A DNA stretch of 64,000 bases from an uncultured Roseovarius sp. (GTDB lineage Bacteria > Pseudomonadota > Alphaproteobacteria > Rhodobacterales > Rhodobacteraceae), in contig CANMOU010000001.1 of NCBI GenBank assembly GCA_947499555.1, forward strand, positions 620,001 to 684,000, read 5' to 3'. Position numbers and translations under genes: made by a program. Under the pieces are notes generated by a model. That model saw only the letters and a program-made list of their open reading frames with translations. It was not told the DNA's origin and searched no databases. Shown piece after piece: positions 266 to 25,450 of the stretch; position 1 is the stretch's first letter; each line of letters begins with the position of its first letter.

Positions 266-679
266 TTATTTCTTGGAAATCGGAACGCCGTAAAGCTCTA
301 GCTTGTGACCCTTCAGCTTGTAGCCGAGTTTATTGGCAATCTTTTCCTGCAATTGCTCAATTTCAGGGTCCACAAATTCGATCACCTCACCGGAATTGAT
401 ATCGATCAGGTGATCATGGTGATCCCGCTCGGCATCTTCATACCGCGCTCGGCCGTCGCCGAATTCCAGCTTATCGAGAATACCTGCCTCTTCGAAGAGC
501 TTCACTGTCCGATAGACCGTCGCGATTGAGATATTCGGATCCCGCGCGCTGGCGCGGCCATAAAGTTCCTCAACGTCCGGATGATCCTCCGATTCCTCCA
601 AGACTGCGGCAATGGTGCGACGTTGGTCTGTCATGCGCAGCCCTTTGGCTTCGCACCTGTCAATGATTGTGTCACTCAT
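266..679 (-). CDS. fur: Fur-family metalloregulator (Fur/Mur type)
   Basis: A 137-residue metal-responsive DNA-binding repressor. The N-terminal winged helix holds the typical GLRMTDQRR segment (13-21) and the recognition region SIATVYRTVKLFEEAG (51-66). The dimerisation half holds HHDH (87-90), the metal-site signature. No CxxC zinc motif is present, as in many alphaproteobacterial Fur/Mur proteins, which respond to iron or manganese. I chose the ATG at 679 (MSDTIID); an ATG at 697 would add six residues. The frame stays open upstream to about 901 but has no convincing start. No haem-regulatory Cys-Pro motif is seen, so Irr is less likely than Fur/Mur. Confidence 0.85.
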   Translation of the reverse strand: MSDTIIDRCEAKGLRMTDQRRTIAAVLEESEDHPDVEELYGRASARDPNISIATVYRTVKLFEEAGILDKLEFGDGRARYEDAERDHHDHLIDINSGEVIEFVDPEIEQLQEKIANKLGYKLKGHKLELYGVPISKK

Positions 680-1006
680 CGTTCTTGCAGCGCCCATGGT
701 TCCGACCTGACTCGGGCAGCGGTGTAAGATATTTCCATCTCGAGTTCTAGGGTCAGGGCCCATTAATCCCGCATCCCAAGGCCAGCGCAGATAGCACAGG
801 ACAGCCACGGGTAGGAGACCGGAAAGCACCGATAGCCCGACCAGCACCCAAAAAGCAGGCGCCCAATTCGTGCCGGACAAACCCGCGGCGTTGACGTTCT
901 AAGTGCGAAAACCATGCGATGGTGTAGCGTGATGATCAGGCGTGGCTGTTTGCTCGTTCCATCCGGCGATATATCGAAGATGCAGAGCTCTGGCATGAAG
1001 TATGCC
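680..1006. other. 327-bp gap between fur and selO, no gene called
   Basis: This stretch should hold the fur promoter. It has open frames on the minus strand, one in frame with fur and coding a hydrophobic run, but these lack an ATG or ribosome-binding site in a sensible place. No tRNA, terminator hairpin or long repeat was seen. Confidence 0.5.
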
Positions 1007-2425
1007 TTAGGTCCCACAAAAGGTCTGCTGCACCACTTCAGACGGCTCCGGCGGATATGTCAAATCCTTCGCATGGTCGTTTGCGTCAAATGGCGATGCA
1101 AGGACAGTGACCAACCTCTCAAACGGCCCGTAATCGCCCGCCACAGCGGCCTGGATCATCTGTTCGATCCGGTGGTTTCGCGGGATATAAGCCGGGTTTG
1201 TCGCCTCCATCAAAGCGACAGGATCATCCGCATCCCCAAGCCGCTTGCGCCAGCCGGTTTCCCATATGTCAAAAGTCTTGGGATCCAGGAATTGATCCCT
1301 TGCCTTGCCACCAGCCAAGGCTCGGAATGTGTTGGTGAAATCCGCGCGGCTCTCGGCCATGATCCTGAGAAGTTCGGTGATCAAACCTTCATCCTCGGGT
1401 GATGCGCTGACCAGGCCAATCTTGCGGCCAAACAGGTCTCGCCACTCATTATGTATCATCTCGGGCATGGCGTGGACGGATCCGGTGAAGACTTCCACCG
1501 CCGCATCCTGATCGGGCATCAGCGGCACCAGGGCTGTTGCCAGCTGCGCCATGTTCCACACGATGACATTGGGCTGGTTGGAATAGGCATAGCGCCCATG
1601 CGCATCGATCGAGCTGAAGACTGTATCGGGATGATAGATGTCGAGGAAAGCACAAGGCCCATAGTCAATTGTTTCGCCCGAAAGCGTGGTGTTATCGGTA
1701 TTCATAACCCCATGAATAAAGCCCACTGACATCCATTGCGCGATCAACTTCGCCTGGCGCTTGATCACCGCGTCAAGCAAGGCATCCGGGCTGCTTATGC
1801 CGGGGTAATGCCGCTCCGCCACATAGGCAAAAAGCCTTTCCAGCGCGGGCAGGTCGCGGCGTGCGGCAAAATACTGAAAAGTGCCCACGCGCACATGGCT
1901 AGAGGCCACGCGGGTCAGAACCGCACCGGGCAGGGCGCCCGTTTCGCGGAAAACGGGCTCTCCGGTCAGCGTCGCGGCCAAGGCGCGGCTGGTGGGAATG
2001 CCAAGCGCATGCATCGCCTCACTGACAACATATTCACGCAGCACCGGCCCCAGCCATGCGCGCCCGTCTCCCATCCGCGAATAGGGTGTGGGGCCAGAGC
2101 CTTTGAGTTGAATATCGAACCGCTGGTCGTCCAGCACAGATTCGCCCAACAGGTTGGCGCGCCCGTCTCCCAATTGCGGAGAGAACCCGCCAAACTGATG
2201 GCCTGCATAGACCTGCGCAAGGGGTTCGGCGCCGTCCGGCACGCGATTGCCGGAAAACACCAGCGCCCGCTCCGCCTCTGACCCCGCGCGAATACCAAGC
2301 TGTTTGGCAAGACCGGCGTTGAACGCGATCAGCTCGGGCTCTCGCACCGGCACCGGGTTTTGCCGCGTATAGAACCGCGATGGCAACCGGGCATAGGTAT
2401 TGTCAAAGGGGATATGCAGGCTCAT
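1007..2425 (-). CDS. selO: Protein adenylyltransferase SelO (YdiU/UPF0061)
   Basis: A 472-residue pseudokinase-fold enzyme. SelO proteins transfer AMP from ATP to Ser/Thr/Tyr of target proteins and act in redox stress responses. The family signature YAGHQFGGFSPQLGDGRA is intact near residue 90, with QLKGSGPTPYSRMGDGRA about 40 residues later. The protein ends in TFCGT: the Cys third from the end is the position that is selenocysteine in some homologues, so this is the Cys form. Length is near the bacterial average of about 480. It is on the same strand as the acetyltransferase upstream, 32 bp from that gene's end. Confidence 0.93.
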   Translation of the reverse strand: MSLHIPFDNTYARLPSRFYTRQNPVPVREPELIAFNAGLAKQLGIRAGSEAERALVFSGNRVPDGAEPLAQVYAGHQFGGFSPQLGDGRANLLGESVLDDQRFDIQLKGSGPTPYSRMGDGRAWLGPVLREYVVSEAMHALGIPTSRALAATLTGEPVFRETGALPGAVLTRVASSHVRVGTFQYFAARRDLPALERLFAYVAERHYPGISSPDALLDAVIKRQAKLIAQWMSVGFIHGVMNTDNTTLSGETIDYGPCAFLDIYHPDTVFSSIDAHGRYAYSNQPNVIVWNMAQLATALVPLMPDQDAAVEVFTGSVHAMPEMIHNEWRDLFGRKIGLVSASPEDEGLITELLRIMAESRADFTNTFRALAGGKARDQFLDPKTFDIWETGWRKRLGDADDPVALMEATNPAYIPRNHRIEQMIQAAVAGDYGPFERLVTVLASPFDANDHAKDLTYPPEPSEVVQQTFCGT

Positions 2426-2457
2426 GGCCAGAAACTTAGGTGTTTTTCAATCCGAAG

Positions 2458-2904
2458 CTAGAGCTTACGCGTCATCAGCATGTAATTCTCACGCGGCGCG
2501 AAATGCATCTTCTCATAGACGCTGCGCGCTTTTGTGTTGGTCTTGTCCACCTCAAGATGAATGGCCTTCATGCCAGCGGCAGAGAGCGTCTTGGGCAAGG
2601 CGGTCAGAATTTCCGTGCCGATGCCACGCCCGCGGACACCGGGGCGAATATAGATTTCATCAACAAAGCCATCCATGCCACCAAATTCGACAGACCAGCC
2701 AAAGGTAATGATGACATAGCCGATGGGTGCCCGTGTAGGACCGGCCAGATAGATGCAGCCATGCGGCGATCCTTCCAAAAGAGGTGTCAGCGCATCGCGG
2801 CGGGTTGCCTCATCCTGCTGAACCCCTTCCTCGTCATGAAAGGCCGTCACCAGGGGCAGCACACGGTCAAGATCTTCCAGTTTGGCCAAGGTAAGGCGGG
2901 TCAT
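2458..2904 (-). CDS. GNAT-family N-acetyltransferase
   Basis: A 148-residue single-domain acetyltransferase that would use acetyl-CoA. The acyl-CoA loop is visible as VRGRGIGTEILTALPK, the R/Q-x-x-G-x-G/A motif, at about residues 90-105. The segment after it (IHLEVDKTNTKARSVYEKMHF) fits GNAT motif B with the conserved N..A...Y pattern. The substrate is unknown. Its ATG overlaps the stop of the nucleoside hydrolase upstream by four bases (ATGA), which indicates translational coupling, so the two may act on related small molecules. Confidence 0.85.
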   Translation of the reverse strand: MTRLTLAKLEDLDRVLPLVTAFHDEEGVQQDEATRRDALTPLLEGSPHGCIYLAGPTRAPIGYVIITFGWSVEFGGMDGFVDEIYIRPGVRGRGIGTEILTALPKTLSAAGMKAIHLEVDKTNTKARSVYEKMHFAPRENYMLMTRKL

Positions 2905-3842
2905 AGTCGGGAAAGCCTTTCGGTGAGAAGAGAGAAAAATCCATCCGCGTCCGCAGAGCCCATGAAGGTGGCGTTGGGCGCACGATCACTCACGCCCCAC
3001 CAGTCGGCCACCGTCATACCTAGGGTCAGCTCCGACGTGGTTTCGATTTCCACGTTGACGTATCGACCCGAAAACAGGTCGGGCTGAATGAGATATGCGA
3101 TGGTGCAGGGATCGTGCAAAGGCGCGCCGTCAGAGCCGTATTTCTCACGATCATAACGTTCAAAAAACGCCGTCATCTCGGCCACGGCCTTGGCCACGGG
3201 AGTGCCTATCGCACGAATGGCGCCATTGCGCGGCCCGGTCACCAGGACCTGATGGGTCACGTCCAGCGGCATGACCGTCAGCGGGACACCAGAAGAAAAC
3301 ACGATATCCGCCGCCTGCGGGTCCACATAGATATTGAACTCGGCGGCGGGTGTCACGTTGCCGACCTGAAAATACGCCCCACCCATCAGAACGATTTCCT
3401 GAACCCTTTCAATGACCTCTGGCGCTTTCCTGAACGCGGTTGCGATATTGGTCAGCGGTCCGATCGGCACAAGGGTCACGCTGCGCGCAGGCTCTTGTCG
3501 CAAGGTCTCAACTAGAAACTCCACAGCATGACCGTCCTGCAGGGGCATCTGAGGATCAGGGAGAGTCGGGCCGTCCAGCCCTGTTTTGCCATGCACATGT
3601 TCCGCCGTCACAAGATCGCGGCCCATGGGCCGATCACATCCGGCAAAAACCTTCACATCCGTGCGCCCGGCCAGCTCGCACACCATCCGGGCATTGCGCG
3701 CGGTCAATTCCAGGGGAACGTTGCCGGCGACGCAGGTGATGCTCAGGAGATCAATCTCCTCCGGACTCGCCAGTGCCAGCAGGATCGCCACGGCGTCGTC
3801 CTGTCCGGGATCGGTGTCGATGATGATCTTGCGCGGGCTCAT
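2901..3842 (-). CDS. Inosine/uridine-preferring nucleoside hydrolase
   Basis: A 313-residue enzyme of the IU-NH family, which cleaves the N-glycosidic bond of ribonucleosides to give ribose and a free base for salvage. The calcium-binding signature IIDTDPGQDDA is at the N-terminus, and the later histidine/aspartate site is seen as APLHDPCTIAYL at about residue 235. No signal peptide is present, so it is cytosolic. A GTG at 3851 would add three residues; I prefer the ATG at 3842. It is the first gene of a pair with the acetyltransferase. Substrate preference cannot be read from sequence. Confidence 0.9.
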   Translation of the reverse strand: MSPRKIIIDTDPGQDDAVAILLALASPEEIDLLSITCVAGNVPLELTARNARMVCELAGRTDVKVFAGCDRPMGRDLVTAEHVHGKTGLDGPTLPDPQMPLQDGHAVEFLVETLRQEPARSVTLVPIGPLTNIATAFRKAPEVIERVQEIVLMGGAYFQVGNVTPAAEFNIYVDPQAADIVFSSGVPLTVMPLDVTHQVLVTGPRNGAIRAIGTPVAKAVAEMTAFFERYDREKYGSDGAPLHDPCTIAYLIQPDLFSGRYVNVEIETTSELTLGMTVADWWGVSDRAPNATFMGSADADGFFSLLTERLSRL

Positions 3843-12756: not shown

Positions 12757-13110
12757 ATGGTTGCACTTCGCAAACAAGAAATTTCACACGGCCCGACCAT
12801 TGAGACTGACGTTGACATGTTTGACGGCAGCGCAGTTGAGGCTTTCACCTCATCGCTGGGTCCCGTCGCGTCCTCAGAAGCCGTGACAGGAGAAGCCGTG
12901 GAAGCGTTCACCTCTTCGCTGGCACCTGTGACAACGTCCGACATGGACGGCGATGCGGTCGAGCTTTTTACCTCAAGCCTCGGCCCTGTTCGTACGGCAG
13001 ACATCAAAGAAGGCGATGCAGTTGAAATGTTCACCTCCAGCCTCGGCCCCGTCCACTCCGCCGAGACCACGGAAGGTGATGCTGTTCACGCCTTCACATC
13101 GAGCCTCTAA
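12757..13110 (+). CDS. FTSSL-repeat peptide, 117 residues (candidate multi-core precursor)
   Basis: A small acidic protein preceded by AAAGGAGAA. Residues 1-23 (MVALRKQEISHGPT...) form a leader-like segment. The rest is five tandem units of 20-21 residues with the pattern G-[SED]-A-V-[EH]-x-[F]-T-S-S-L-[GA]-P-V and a variable linker. FTSSL occurs at 30-34, 51-55, 71-75, 92-96 and 113-117, the last being the exact C-terminus. There is no Cys, Trp or Tyr, no signal peptide and no membrane segment. The frame is open upstream to 12628, but only the ATG at 12757 has a ribosome-binding site. I recognise no function. The layout resembles multi-core RiPP precursors; an alternative is a scaffold with five docking motifs. 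Confidence 0.85.
   Translation: MVALRKQEISHGPTIETDVDMFDGSAVEAFTSSLGPVASSEAVTGEAVEAFTSSLAPVTTSDMDGDAVELFTSSLGPVRTADIKEGDAVEMFTSSLGPVHSAETTEGDAVHAFTSSL
12826..13107 (+). repeat. Five in-frame 60-63-bp units coding the FTSSL repeat
   Basis: Tandem coding repeat within the gene at 12757; the fifth copy is cut after FTSSL by the stop. The T-S-S codons differ between copies (ACC TCA TCG, ACC TCT TCG, ACC TCA AGC, ACC TCC AGC, ACA TCG AGC), so the DNA has drifted while the peptide stayed fixed. Confidence 0.9.
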
Positions 13111-13153: not shown

Positions 13154-14224
13154 ATGGGATCTGTCGTTCACTTCAATTTTCCGTTCCGCCAATCAACTGC
13201 GCAGATGCGACAGGCCGCGCTATTGGAGCGTTTTGCCGCGCATCGCAGGCCGGAACAGGATGTGTTCTGGCTCAAGGAAAATGCCGAGCTGCTGAACATT
13301 TTCCAAAGCTGCCAATTCGTCCAGCCCCAAGCGGCTTTGGCGCCGTTCGAAGCATTCTACCAATCGATCGAAAAACGTCTGAGCTTTTTCCCCCAATATT
13401 ATCGTTTCCTGCTGTCCATGTGCCTTGATCTTGAGGATCTGGGCCTGCCCGGTCAGCGATCAGAGGCCGCCGTGGACTGGGCTTTGTCCCAAGGTCTGGC
13501 AGCGGCGGAACTTTCCGATCTGCAGCGCGCCGAAGCCCGGCGTCTGTGTTTGCGTCGCGGTCGAGATCCCTTGGCAGATGATGCCGGACTGGATGATCGT
13601 TTGCGCCTTTTTACAACCCGCAAAGAGACCTTTGCGATCCCAAACAAAAAGGCCGCCTACGAGTTGACGCATATTGTTTTCTACCTGTCTGACTACGGAT
13701 CAAGAGACCCCAAGGTCGACAAAGACACGCTTGAAAGCCTGAGCTTCGCCGGCACATTGGCCTATCTCGAACTCAATATCGATCTGCTTGCCGAAATCTG
13801 CATTGCCCTTCGCTTTTGCGGCCACACGCCCCCGGCCACCTGGGAGAATTGGCTCAAGGAACAGATCCGTTACTTTGCCATTCGCGAAGACGCCACTGGC
13901 TGGCGCGCGGATGCCTATCATCCCTATTTCATGTTGAACTGGCATTTGTCTCTGACCGATCAGGGAGGGTTCGGTGCACAAATCCCTGAAGGCGGCATCA
14001 GCTTTGCGGCCCCTCGCCACGAAGTTGCACCTTTGCGAGAATTGTCAAAGCAAATGTACACGTTGGGGACTTCCCGCAGTGCAAATTGGACAGCGATGCG
14101 GCCTGCTTTGGAAGAGTCGCTGTCGGATACCGCCCGTGAAGTGGTGGCGAATGCCGAAGGTGCCGTCGATTTTGAGGCTTTCTTCGAAGGCTTTGCCCGT
14201 GCAAGTGCTCCGGGACATCTGTGA
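13154..14224 (+). CDS. Unrecognised 356-residue protein beside the repeat peptide
   Basis: A mostly helical cytosolic protein without signal or membrane segments. It starts MGSVVHFNFPFR after AGGAAAGGAAG, 43 bp after the repeat-peptide stop. A striking segment, ELTHIVFYLSDYG (170-182), offers Glu, His and Asp. It is followed by LNIDLLAEICIALRFCGH (207-224), and AYHPYFMLNWH (254-264) adds two His; together these could build a metal or catalytic site in a helical barrel. I cannot assign a family with confidence. The frame is open upstream into the repeat gene, but that start has no ribosome-binding site. Position suggests it acts on, or is regulated by, the repeat peptide. That is inference. 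Confidence 0.85.
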   Translation: MGSVVHFNFPFRQSTAQMRQAALLERFAAHRRPEQDVFWLKENAELLNIFQSCQFVQPQAALAPFEAFYQSIEKRLSFFPQYYRFLLSMCLDLEDLGLPGQRSEAAVDWALSQGLAAAELSDLQRAEARRLCLRRGRDPLADDAGLDDRLRLFTTRKETFAIPNKKAAYELTHIVFYLSDYGSRDPKVDKDTLESLSFAGTLAYLELNIDLLAEICIALRFCGHTPPATWENWLKEQIRYFAIREDATGWRADAYHPYFMLNWHLSLTDQGGFGAQIPEGGISFAAPRHEVAPLRELSKQMYTLGTSRSANWTAMRPALEESLSDTAREVVANAEGAVDFEAFFEGFARASAPGHL

Positions 14225-15129
14225 TGGTACGACACGGTGCATCGGCAGTCCTGTTCGGCGTCGGCCTTACGGCGCTCTACACGTTTTTCATTACCGGAGC
14301 GGATGCGATCACCAAGTCTTTTGCGTCAACCTTTGCCGCACCCCAGCTTTTTGCCATTTCGGGCGGACTGGTCGCCGCCTTCAGCGTGCTTGCCAACCGG
14401 GACGCGCACGGAAAACACCGCAATATGAAAACGCGCTGCCCGCGCGCTATGGCGATCCGAGTTGTAGCCACAGTCGCAGGGACGGTCGCCTTTTTCTATG
14501 CCTTCAAACTGCTTCCCTTTGCCGATGTCTTTTTGTTCATCGCCCTCATCCCCCTGATCACCGCAGCCCTTTCGGGCCCTGTTTTGTCAGAGCCCGTCAG
14601 GAAACAGACCTGGGTTGCGCTGGCACTCGGCGCGATTGGCGTTGCATGCCTTTTCCCCACGGGTCACGAGGATATCGGCCTTGGCCACATCGTCGCACTT
14701 TTGGCCGTGTTGCTGGGGTCCGTCTCGATGGTCGCGTCCCGCTATATCGGACAGCGTGACGACAATCTTCTGAGCCAGGTCTTTTACCCCAATCTCGCGC
14801 TCATGGCAGTGATGTGTTGCGCCTTGCCCTTCGTCTTTGCCCCGATGACAGGGTTTGACCTGATTTTGGCCATCTCTTACGCGGCCCTGCTTTTCGCCGC
14901 GCGGTGGGTCTTGGTGGCCGCGCTCAGACTGATGCCAGCTTATGTCGTGACGCCGTTGATAAACTTGCAATTCATCTGGATGGTGCTCATCGGTTACGTG
15001 GTCTTTGCAGAGACGCCCGCACTGAACACCTATGCCGGTGCCGCGATCATCATCTTGGCAGGAGGCTGGCTTGTGGTGGAAAGACTTCGCCCGTTTCACC
15101 GCCCCAAAGTTGTCATTCCAGCAGAATAA
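14224..15129 (+). CDS. DMT (EamA-type) exporter coupled to the 356-residue protein
   Basis: A 301-residue inner-membrane protein with about ten hydrophobic helices in two five-helix halves, the drug/metabolite transporter fold. The first half ends near RNM...RAM; the second opens with KQTWVALALGAIGVACLF. The start ATG overlaps the previous stop by one base (TGATG), so translation is coupled; a GTG one codon earlier is also possible. EamA proteins move amino acids, nucleobases or other small metabolites rather than whole proteins, so if it belongs to a peptide system it would export a small processed product. It ends 66 bp from the convergent erpA stop. Confidence 0.85.
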   Translation: MVRHGASAVLFGVGLTALYTFFITGADAITKSFASTFAAPQLFAISGGLVAAFSVLANRDAHGKHRNMKTRCPRAMAIRVVATVAGTVAFFYAFKLLPFADVFLFIALIPLITAALSGPVLSEPVRKQTWVALALGAIGVACLFPTGHEDIGLGHIVALLAVLLGSVSMVASRYIGQRDDNLLSQVFYPNLALMAVMCCALPFVFAPMTGFDLILAISYAALLFAARWVLVAALRLMPAYVVTPLINLQFIWMVLIGYVVFAETPALNTYAGAAIIILAGGWLVVERLRPFHRPKVVIPAE

Positions 15130-25373: not shown

Positions 25374-25450
25374 TGGTCGGGCTAGCAGGACTCGAACCTG
25401 CGACCTTCCGTCCCCCAGACGGACGCGCTACCAGGCTGCGCCATAGCCCG
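25374..25450 (-). tRNA. tRNA-Pro (GGG)
   Basis: A 77-nt cloverleaf on the minus strand. The acceptor stem pairs CGGGCTA with TAGCCCG, discriminator A, and CCA is encoded. The D arm is GCGCAGCCTGGTAGCGC, the anticodon stem TCCGT/ACGGA encloses loop CTGGGGG (anticodon GGG, codons CCC and CCU), and the T arm holds GGTTCGAGTCC. It lies between merR and its terminator. Confidence 0.95.

Follow-up and report, generated by a model that had tools for sequence, protein, structure and literature searches.

A multi-core RiPP-like precursor from an uncultured Roseovarius and the adjacent DUF6902 protein, its probable dedicated enzyme

A DUF6895 protein is a lasso-peptide epimerase according to the title of a 2026 paper in ACS Catal. 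(doi 10.1021/acscatal.5c08590). The report on MslH, the epimerase for the lasso peptide MS-271, describes two His/Asp pairs and action on the COOH-terminal residue of the precursor (PMC10406935). The microviridin (graspetide) protein AMdnA is a multi-core precursor, and its partner AMdnC is an ATP-grasp ligase that makes macrolactones (PMC5934393). Fungal repeat proteins processed by Kex2, including yeast alpha-factor, contain repeated near-identical peptide copies (PMC7329392). Here we describe a gene for a protein with five copies of the pentapeptide FTSSL, together with the following gene for a DUF6902 protein, in a 64,000-nucleotide stretch of DNA from an uncultured Roseovarius sp. (contig CANMOU010000001.1, positions 620,001 to 684,000; hereafter the window). 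Comparison of sequences across genomes suggests a multi-core system resembling those for ribosomally synthesized and post-translationally modified peptides (RiPPs), with the DUF6902 protein as a dedicated enzyme that probably epimerizes the core, a full reading in which we have moderate confidence; that the DUF6902 protein acts on the precursor is highly probable.

The window system resembles the DUF6895 lasso epimerase in its Pfam superfamily and in a His/His/Asp/Glu/Tyr set common to DUF6895 proteins, but its enzyme belongs to the DUF6902 branch (PF21843) and the putative substrate is a repeat protein with 2 to 20 cores rather than a lasso precursor. With MslH it would share a ribosomal precursor as substrate as well as two His residues with acid partners and a COOH-terminal target, both of which are predicted for the DUF6902 protein; MslH, however, is unrelated and has a calcineurin-like fold with Ca(II), whereas the DUF6902 protein is all-alpha and toroid-like. 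The AMdnA/AMdnC system likewise couples a single precursor with several cores to one enzyme, although the DUF6902 protein is all-alpha, unlike AMdnC, and no ATP-grasp gene was found among the scanned neighbors. Near-identical peptide copies are repeated within one precursor both here and in the Kex2-processed proteins, but the latter are eukaryotic and secreted by means of a signal peptide, with Kex2 as the cleaving protease, whereas the window system is bacterial, visual inspection of its precursor reveals no obvious signal peptide, and the locus contains no conserved protease.

Translation of the open reading frame (ORF) at 12757-13110 agreed with the initial annotation, which had described a Cys-free protein of 117 residues with five FTSSL units, of which four are followed by GPV or APV and the fifth ends the protein. 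The cores begin at residues 30, 51, 71, 92, and 113 (spacings of 21, 20, 21, and 21). The Thr-Ser-Ser codon triplets differ in all five copies, as had also been claimed, and the cores are encoded by five different DNA 15-mers. When the residues of the protein were shuffled 20,000 times, the count of any one pentapeptide never exceeded two, compared with five in the real sequence; the repeat is thus real and far beyond chance. AAAGGAG precedes the start ATG, and the NH2-terminal MVALRK fits the family leader consensus M-x-A-x-x-K. Searches of Pfam, NCBIfam, and PADLOC with the precursor yielded nothing above cut-off, and PHROGs gave a single weak match (E 0.0025) to a function-unknown family, with no stretch passing alone, which we judged to be due to chance. 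A search of phages with the precursor protein yielded zero matches.

In a census of 198 genomes of the window's bacterial family, DUF6902 was present in 55, corresponding to over one-fourth of the genera sampled. A search of the same genomes for the precursor matched 51, of which 49 were genuine after reading; the other two, G057 (E 0.008) and G064 (E 0.007), were weak repeat matches without DUF6902 that did not prove to be repeat precursors and were dropped. DUF6902 was present in all 49 genomes with a genuine match (Fisher P = 3e-40, or 4e-37 with the two spurious matches kept), and homologs separated from the neighboring gene, which the initial annotation had named as evidence against its proposal, were therefore found in none. 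We read the loci of 54 of the 55 DUF6902 genomes, including the window but not G139, in which a DUF6902 fragment lies at a contig end. In 53 of these 54 loci, some of which are incomplete (contig ends truncate L077, L087, and L104, and L081 contains a run of N), a same-strand repeat precursor precedes DUF6902. Within the window's genus, DUF6902 was detected in 31 of 60 sampled genomes and the precursor in 29 of 30 loci, window included, with the remaining locus ending at a contig end. The precursor was also present in all four further loci from the genus of G067 and in four of five extra DUF6902-type loci of the same family outside the 54 (L134 to L138), having been found by profile in L134 and L135 and by eye in L136 and L137; L138 is a truncated relative in which no precursor was resolved. 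The cores of L136 (G523) and L137 (G557) are of a shifted type, such as FSTSSF and LSTSSF, and were missed by the repeat profile. The multi-core precursor genes total 89 (53 from the main loci, 28 more from the window's genus, 4 from the genus of G067, and 4 from the extra loci). Precursor and enzyme genes are thus adjacent and co-occur (53 of 54 loci; 49 of 49 genomes), giving the linkage to a dedicated enzyme gene that characterizes RiPP precursors.

The operon occupies one conserved chromosomal place in most genera. Its shared neighbors among the 54 loci are genes that we take, from sequence and position, to be exoIII (Exo_endo_phos; 50 loci), ErpA (Fe-S; 46), and Dgt (HD; 46), in addition to an EamA transporter gene that lies just downstream in 40 loci and was not found in 14, including L109, which is cut at a contig end. 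Among 30 relatives without DUF6902, exoIII was present in 27; ErpA lay within 1.5 kb upstream of exoIII in 19 of these 27, at a distance of <450 bases in 12 of the 19, and the site therefore persists without the operon. In nine loci without EamA, including L113, DUF6902 abuts ErpA with a gap of 16 to 90 bases, and the precursor and DUF6902 therefore constitute the minimal unit of what is a two-gene, often three-gene, system. A search of plasmids with the DUF6902 protein gave zero matches. In L193 (G969), DUF6902 contains one in-frame TAG and one of five cores is FTFSM among FTSSM, and this system is possibly starting to decay.

The number of units per precursor ranged from 2 to 20 (median of 7) as counted with a regular expression, and is approximate given that some cores are missed, including two in L080. 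Two false cores (FATAL in L061 and MTTGA in L091) were excluded from the identity and Mantel figures but retained in the unit counts and in the proportions of synonymous (pS) and nonsynonymous (pN) differences. The start of the leader was conserved, with A3 in 41 and K6 in 41 of the 48 precursors (of 53) with a usable start, so that the combination of variable repeat number and conserved leader for which the initial annotation had proposed a search was indeed present. The best conserved positions among 364 units from 53 genomes were G at -6 (99%), F at 0 (93%), P at +6 (87%), and S at +2 (80%). Core pentapeptide identity was 95.7% within genomes versus 51.8% between genomes (1,378 pairs). Within genes, pS and pN were 0.499 and 0.043 for the core (the two false cores included) compared with 0.536 and 0.377 for the linker at +7 to +12, and pS exceeded pN in 49 of 52 loci. 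The 168 cores in 29 genes of the window's genus comprised, per gene, a mean of 5.24 DNA forms but 1.14 peptides; the core was uniform in 25 of the 29 genes, with four having a single deviating unit, and was FTSSL, FTSSM, FTSSI, or FTTSL depending on species. An exact end at the core was observed for all 29 precursors from this genus and for 32 of 52 in the family as a whole. Every copy of the core shows purifying selection, as would be expected of a product synthesized in many equal copies, and a conserved leader (A3 and K6 each in 41 of 48) accompanied by a core under selection (pN of 0.043 vs 0.377) is as expected for a multi-core RiPP precursor. Near-identical units were observed in a few family members (L062, L095), and some units of L069 (G100) contain doubled cores eight residues apart (FTSGLVQMFTSGL).

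Core distance tracked that of the enzyme. In partial Mantel tests on 47 of the 54 loci, core distance was correlated with DUF6902 distance given exoIII distance (r = 0.357, P = 0.0008) but not with exoIII distance given DUF6902 distance (r = 0.047, P = 0.31). Joint transfer of linked genes could yield an identical outcome. For the flanking segment at -10 to -1, the corresponding partial r with DUF6902 distance was 0.439 (P = 0.0005). The sharpest observation for an enzyme-precursor link is a natural control: L113 (G039) is the only one of the 54 DUF6902 loci without a findable precursor, and among the 54 DUF6902 sequences it alone has lost Y169, H173, D210, E214, Y255, and H256 together. Its DUF6902 relative is an open frame that adjoins the usual neighbor genes and aligned to a DUF6902 profile over nearly its full extent (positions 21-352; 140 bits), with the residue losses being confirmed in this alignment. 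Other departures at the candidate residues were Y169F in L105 and the loss of the COOH-terminal part in L109.

The DUF6902 protein of the window matched PF21843 with an E value of 3.4e-145 (483.8 bits, cut-off of 27) and also exceeded the cut-off for DUF6895 (PF21836; E 1e-21, 78.1 bits, cut-off of 23.8). An alignment of four DUF6895 and nine DUF6902 proteins revealed H173, G182, D210, E214, Y255, and H256 to be invariant and Y169 nearly so, and the matching E, Y, H, G, D, E, and Y-H residues were retained among 13 DUF6895 proteins aligned alone. When the window protein was aligned with 11 DUF6895 proteins, the same set plus E45 was obtained, but with H264 of the former in the second His column; H256 is present in 52 of the 54 DUF6902 proteins, whereas H264 is present in only 15. 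The match to both Pfam families and the shared H, G, D, E, and Y-H residues place the DUF6902 protein in the DUF6895/DUF6902 superfamily, with candidate active-site residues, as identified by alignment, that are common to DUF6895 proteins of other phyla. A PDB sequence search with the DUF6902 profile gave one match (E 1.8), a Foldseek search against PDB gave none at E <= 0.001, and the open-access PMC literature searched contained no paper naming DUF6902 or holding the searched core strings nor, among the matches listed, any paper treating this precursor.

We collected DUF6895 proteins confirmed by Pfam from 13 loci of Pseudomonadota (Gilvimarinus, Cupriavidus, and others), Actinomycetota (Kitasatospora, Streptomyces), Bacillota (Pseudalkalibacillus), and Gemmatimonadota (Gemmatirosa); a scan of genome contigs with DUF6895 yielded one locus, in Gilvimarinus agarilyticus JEA5. 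A small same-strand ORF lies directly upstream of DUF6895 in 10 of the 13 loci (L131, L132, L133, L141, L142, L143, L145, L148, L150, and L151), with L148 and L150 being the least convincing, and two genes upstream in L144 and L146; L147 was not resolved. In the precursor alignment, which covered eight of the 13 loci (without L144, L146, L147, L148, and L150), ten stretches share a leader-like segment of approximately L-x-x-S-G-(I/L)-(I/L)-(N/D)...(T/S)-L-x-Q-L, with exceptions. These stretches terminate in aromatic cores such as GPWFVL, GPWYIY, and WDKYVLVV, with two such units in L132, L133, and L151. Given that DUF6895 loci elsewhere have small precursor-like ORFs, the pairing of a precursor with DUF6902/DUF6895 is wider than the window's bacterial family, and the multi-core form is an extreme of this wider precursor-enzyme pairing. 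The Streptomyces plasmid loci L144 and L147 contain tandem DUF6895-like genes, with a P450 gene, a 62-residue small ORF, and a serine hydrolase gene also being close by in L144. In L150 (G593, 571-3282), the DUF6895 domain is part of a 903-residue protein with an APH-type phosphotransferase domain on its COOH-terminal side; an assignment of this fusion partner as a metallopeptidase was rejected on the basis of the Pfam match.

We propose that the DUF6902 protein would bind the leader or the G-(D/E)-x-x-x-x-F stretch and act on successive cores. The likeliest reaction, given the kinship of DUF6902 to DUF6895, would be Calpha epimerization from L to D by acid/base chemistry, with two His residues and their Asp and Glu partners serving as the acid/base set in an alpha/alpha-toroid-like protein. 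The near-invariant His pair with Asp/Glu and the cores that end the protein would fit an MslH-like epimerization achieved by a different fold. Given that the final unit ends the precursor throughout the window's genus and in most precursors family-wide, the last core residue is probably the COOH-terminus of the product. The cores would then be released by unlinked cellular proteases; EamA, where present, may export the product, and the product may have a signaling or antagonistic role. More tentatively, and with considerable doubt, the system might be a bacterial counterpart of alpha-factor, in which a D-residue signal peptide is made in many identical copies of species-specific type, such as FTSSL throughout in one species and FTSSM or FTSSI throughout in another, with uniformity being maintained by an unlinked receptor, and which would form the multi-core branch of a cross-phylum alpha/alpha-toroid epimerase system.

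The precursor, its parts, and the associated genes in the window are given in Table 1. A gap of 43 bases separates the precursor from the start of DUF6902. The six neighbors scanned with Pfam encode DUF6902, EamA, Exo_endo_phos, FAD-binding, Fe-S biosynthesis, and HD proteins; the flanking genes, for an exonuclease-type Exo_endo_phos protein (minus strand), an Fe-S biosynthesis protein, and an HD phosphohydrolase, are ordinary. The absence of nearby ATP-grasp and radical-SAM genes, as stated in the initial annotation, holds for these six genes, those farther off not having been scanned, but that annotation overlooked both the enzyme candidate directly next to the precursor and the EamA gene downstream. 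Neither a lasso-type leader peptidase nor an Asn-synthetase-like cyclase was found among the six; we dropped lasso peptide identity and, given the lack of Cys conservation among the cores, also the ideas of a metallophore and of thioethers. At gathering thresholds, Rfam matched a single feature of the window, a tRNA (25377-25450, minus strand).

Table 1. Positions of the precursor, its parts, and the associated genes in the window
Feature	Position	Strand	Basis
Precursor gene, 117 aa: leader-like segment and five FTSSL-core units	12757..13110	+	ORF translation; homologs
Leader-like segment, residues 1-23 (MVALRK...; family consensus M-x-A-x-x-K)	12757..12825	+	
Core 1, FTSSL	12844..12858	+	
Core 2, FTSSL	12907..12921	+	
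Core 3, FTSSL	12967..12981	+	
Core 4, FTSSL	13030..13044	+	
Core 5, FTSSL, COOH-terminal end of the protein	13093..13107	+	
DUF6902 protein, 356 aa, DUF6895-related; proposed core-modifying enzyme, probably epimerase	13154..14224	+	
EamA-family (DMT) transporter, accessory, possible exporter; overlaps DUF6902 stop	14221..15129	+	
Candidate active-site residues of DUF6902: Y169, H173, D210, E214, Y255, H256 (and E45)	window numbering		sequence alignment

The same gene pair might perform other chemistry on the core, such as a mass-changing modification, cyclization, or proteolytic core release. The linkage and selection evidence fits this explanation equally, Ser/Thr/Cys-rich cores would provide side chains, and in the two-gene loci no protease or further enzyme lies between the precursor and ErpA. 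Epimerization is nevertheless the only function tied, by title, to the related DUF6895 in the literature searched, and Thr, Ser, and Cys are not fixed at given core positions (YIAGL, FISWS, FPSWS), which makes a reaction at a single side chain less likely than one at Calpha; we therefore consider other chemistry a plausible but rather doubtful alternative to epimerization. An artefact at the DNA level, in the form of a minisatellite or assembly repeat in a noncoding or chance ORF, might be suspected from tandem units of near-constant length and from the near-identical units in L062 and L095. It is refuted, however, by wide synonymous divergence around an unchanged core, as well as by the ribosome site and the one conserved place in most genera, and is exceedingly improbable.

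That an unmodified repeat protein serves DUF6902 or some other partner as a structural scaffold or, the other possibility raised in the initial annotation, as a set of docking sites would explain why the repeats co-evolve with a partner, why the flank at -10 to -1 also follows DUF6902 distance, and why the locus has no conserved protease. Docking sites, however, rarely need identical pentapeptides that end at the COOH-terminus, as seen in all 29 genus members, and the unit number is variable; the catalytic-looking residues are near-invariant and jointly lost only where the precursor is missing, and the small peptides paired with the DUF6895 relatives differ in sequence, several being single-unit. 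Docking thus explains less, and we regard it as unlikely, whereas the multi-core precursor interpretation is well supported by comparison, with layout, variable repeat number, selection on the core, and the tie to one enzyme gene all in its favor. It is also quite unlikely that the protein is a cytoplasmic decoy or regulatory peptide with nothing secreted and EamA a bystander. The 14 loci without detected EamA and the lack of an obvious signal peptide would suit such a role, but EamA lies just downstream in the other 40, and cores that are uniform within a genome and different between species are as expected for a product matched to a receptor or target.

The proposed multi-core system with a probable core epimerase provides the DUF6895/DUF6902 superfamily with a consistent genetic partner in four phyla. 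The resulting substrate list of 89 multi-core precursor genes, together with about six candidate catalytic residues, renders function testable by co-expression of two genes. The product is probably a little-studied modified peptide, with the five-copy protein as its raw material. If DUF6902 is an epimerase, multi-copy cores would make D-residue peptides accessible by a simple, genetically encoded route, and, if the product is a signal, a peptide communication system would be opened up in these bacteria.
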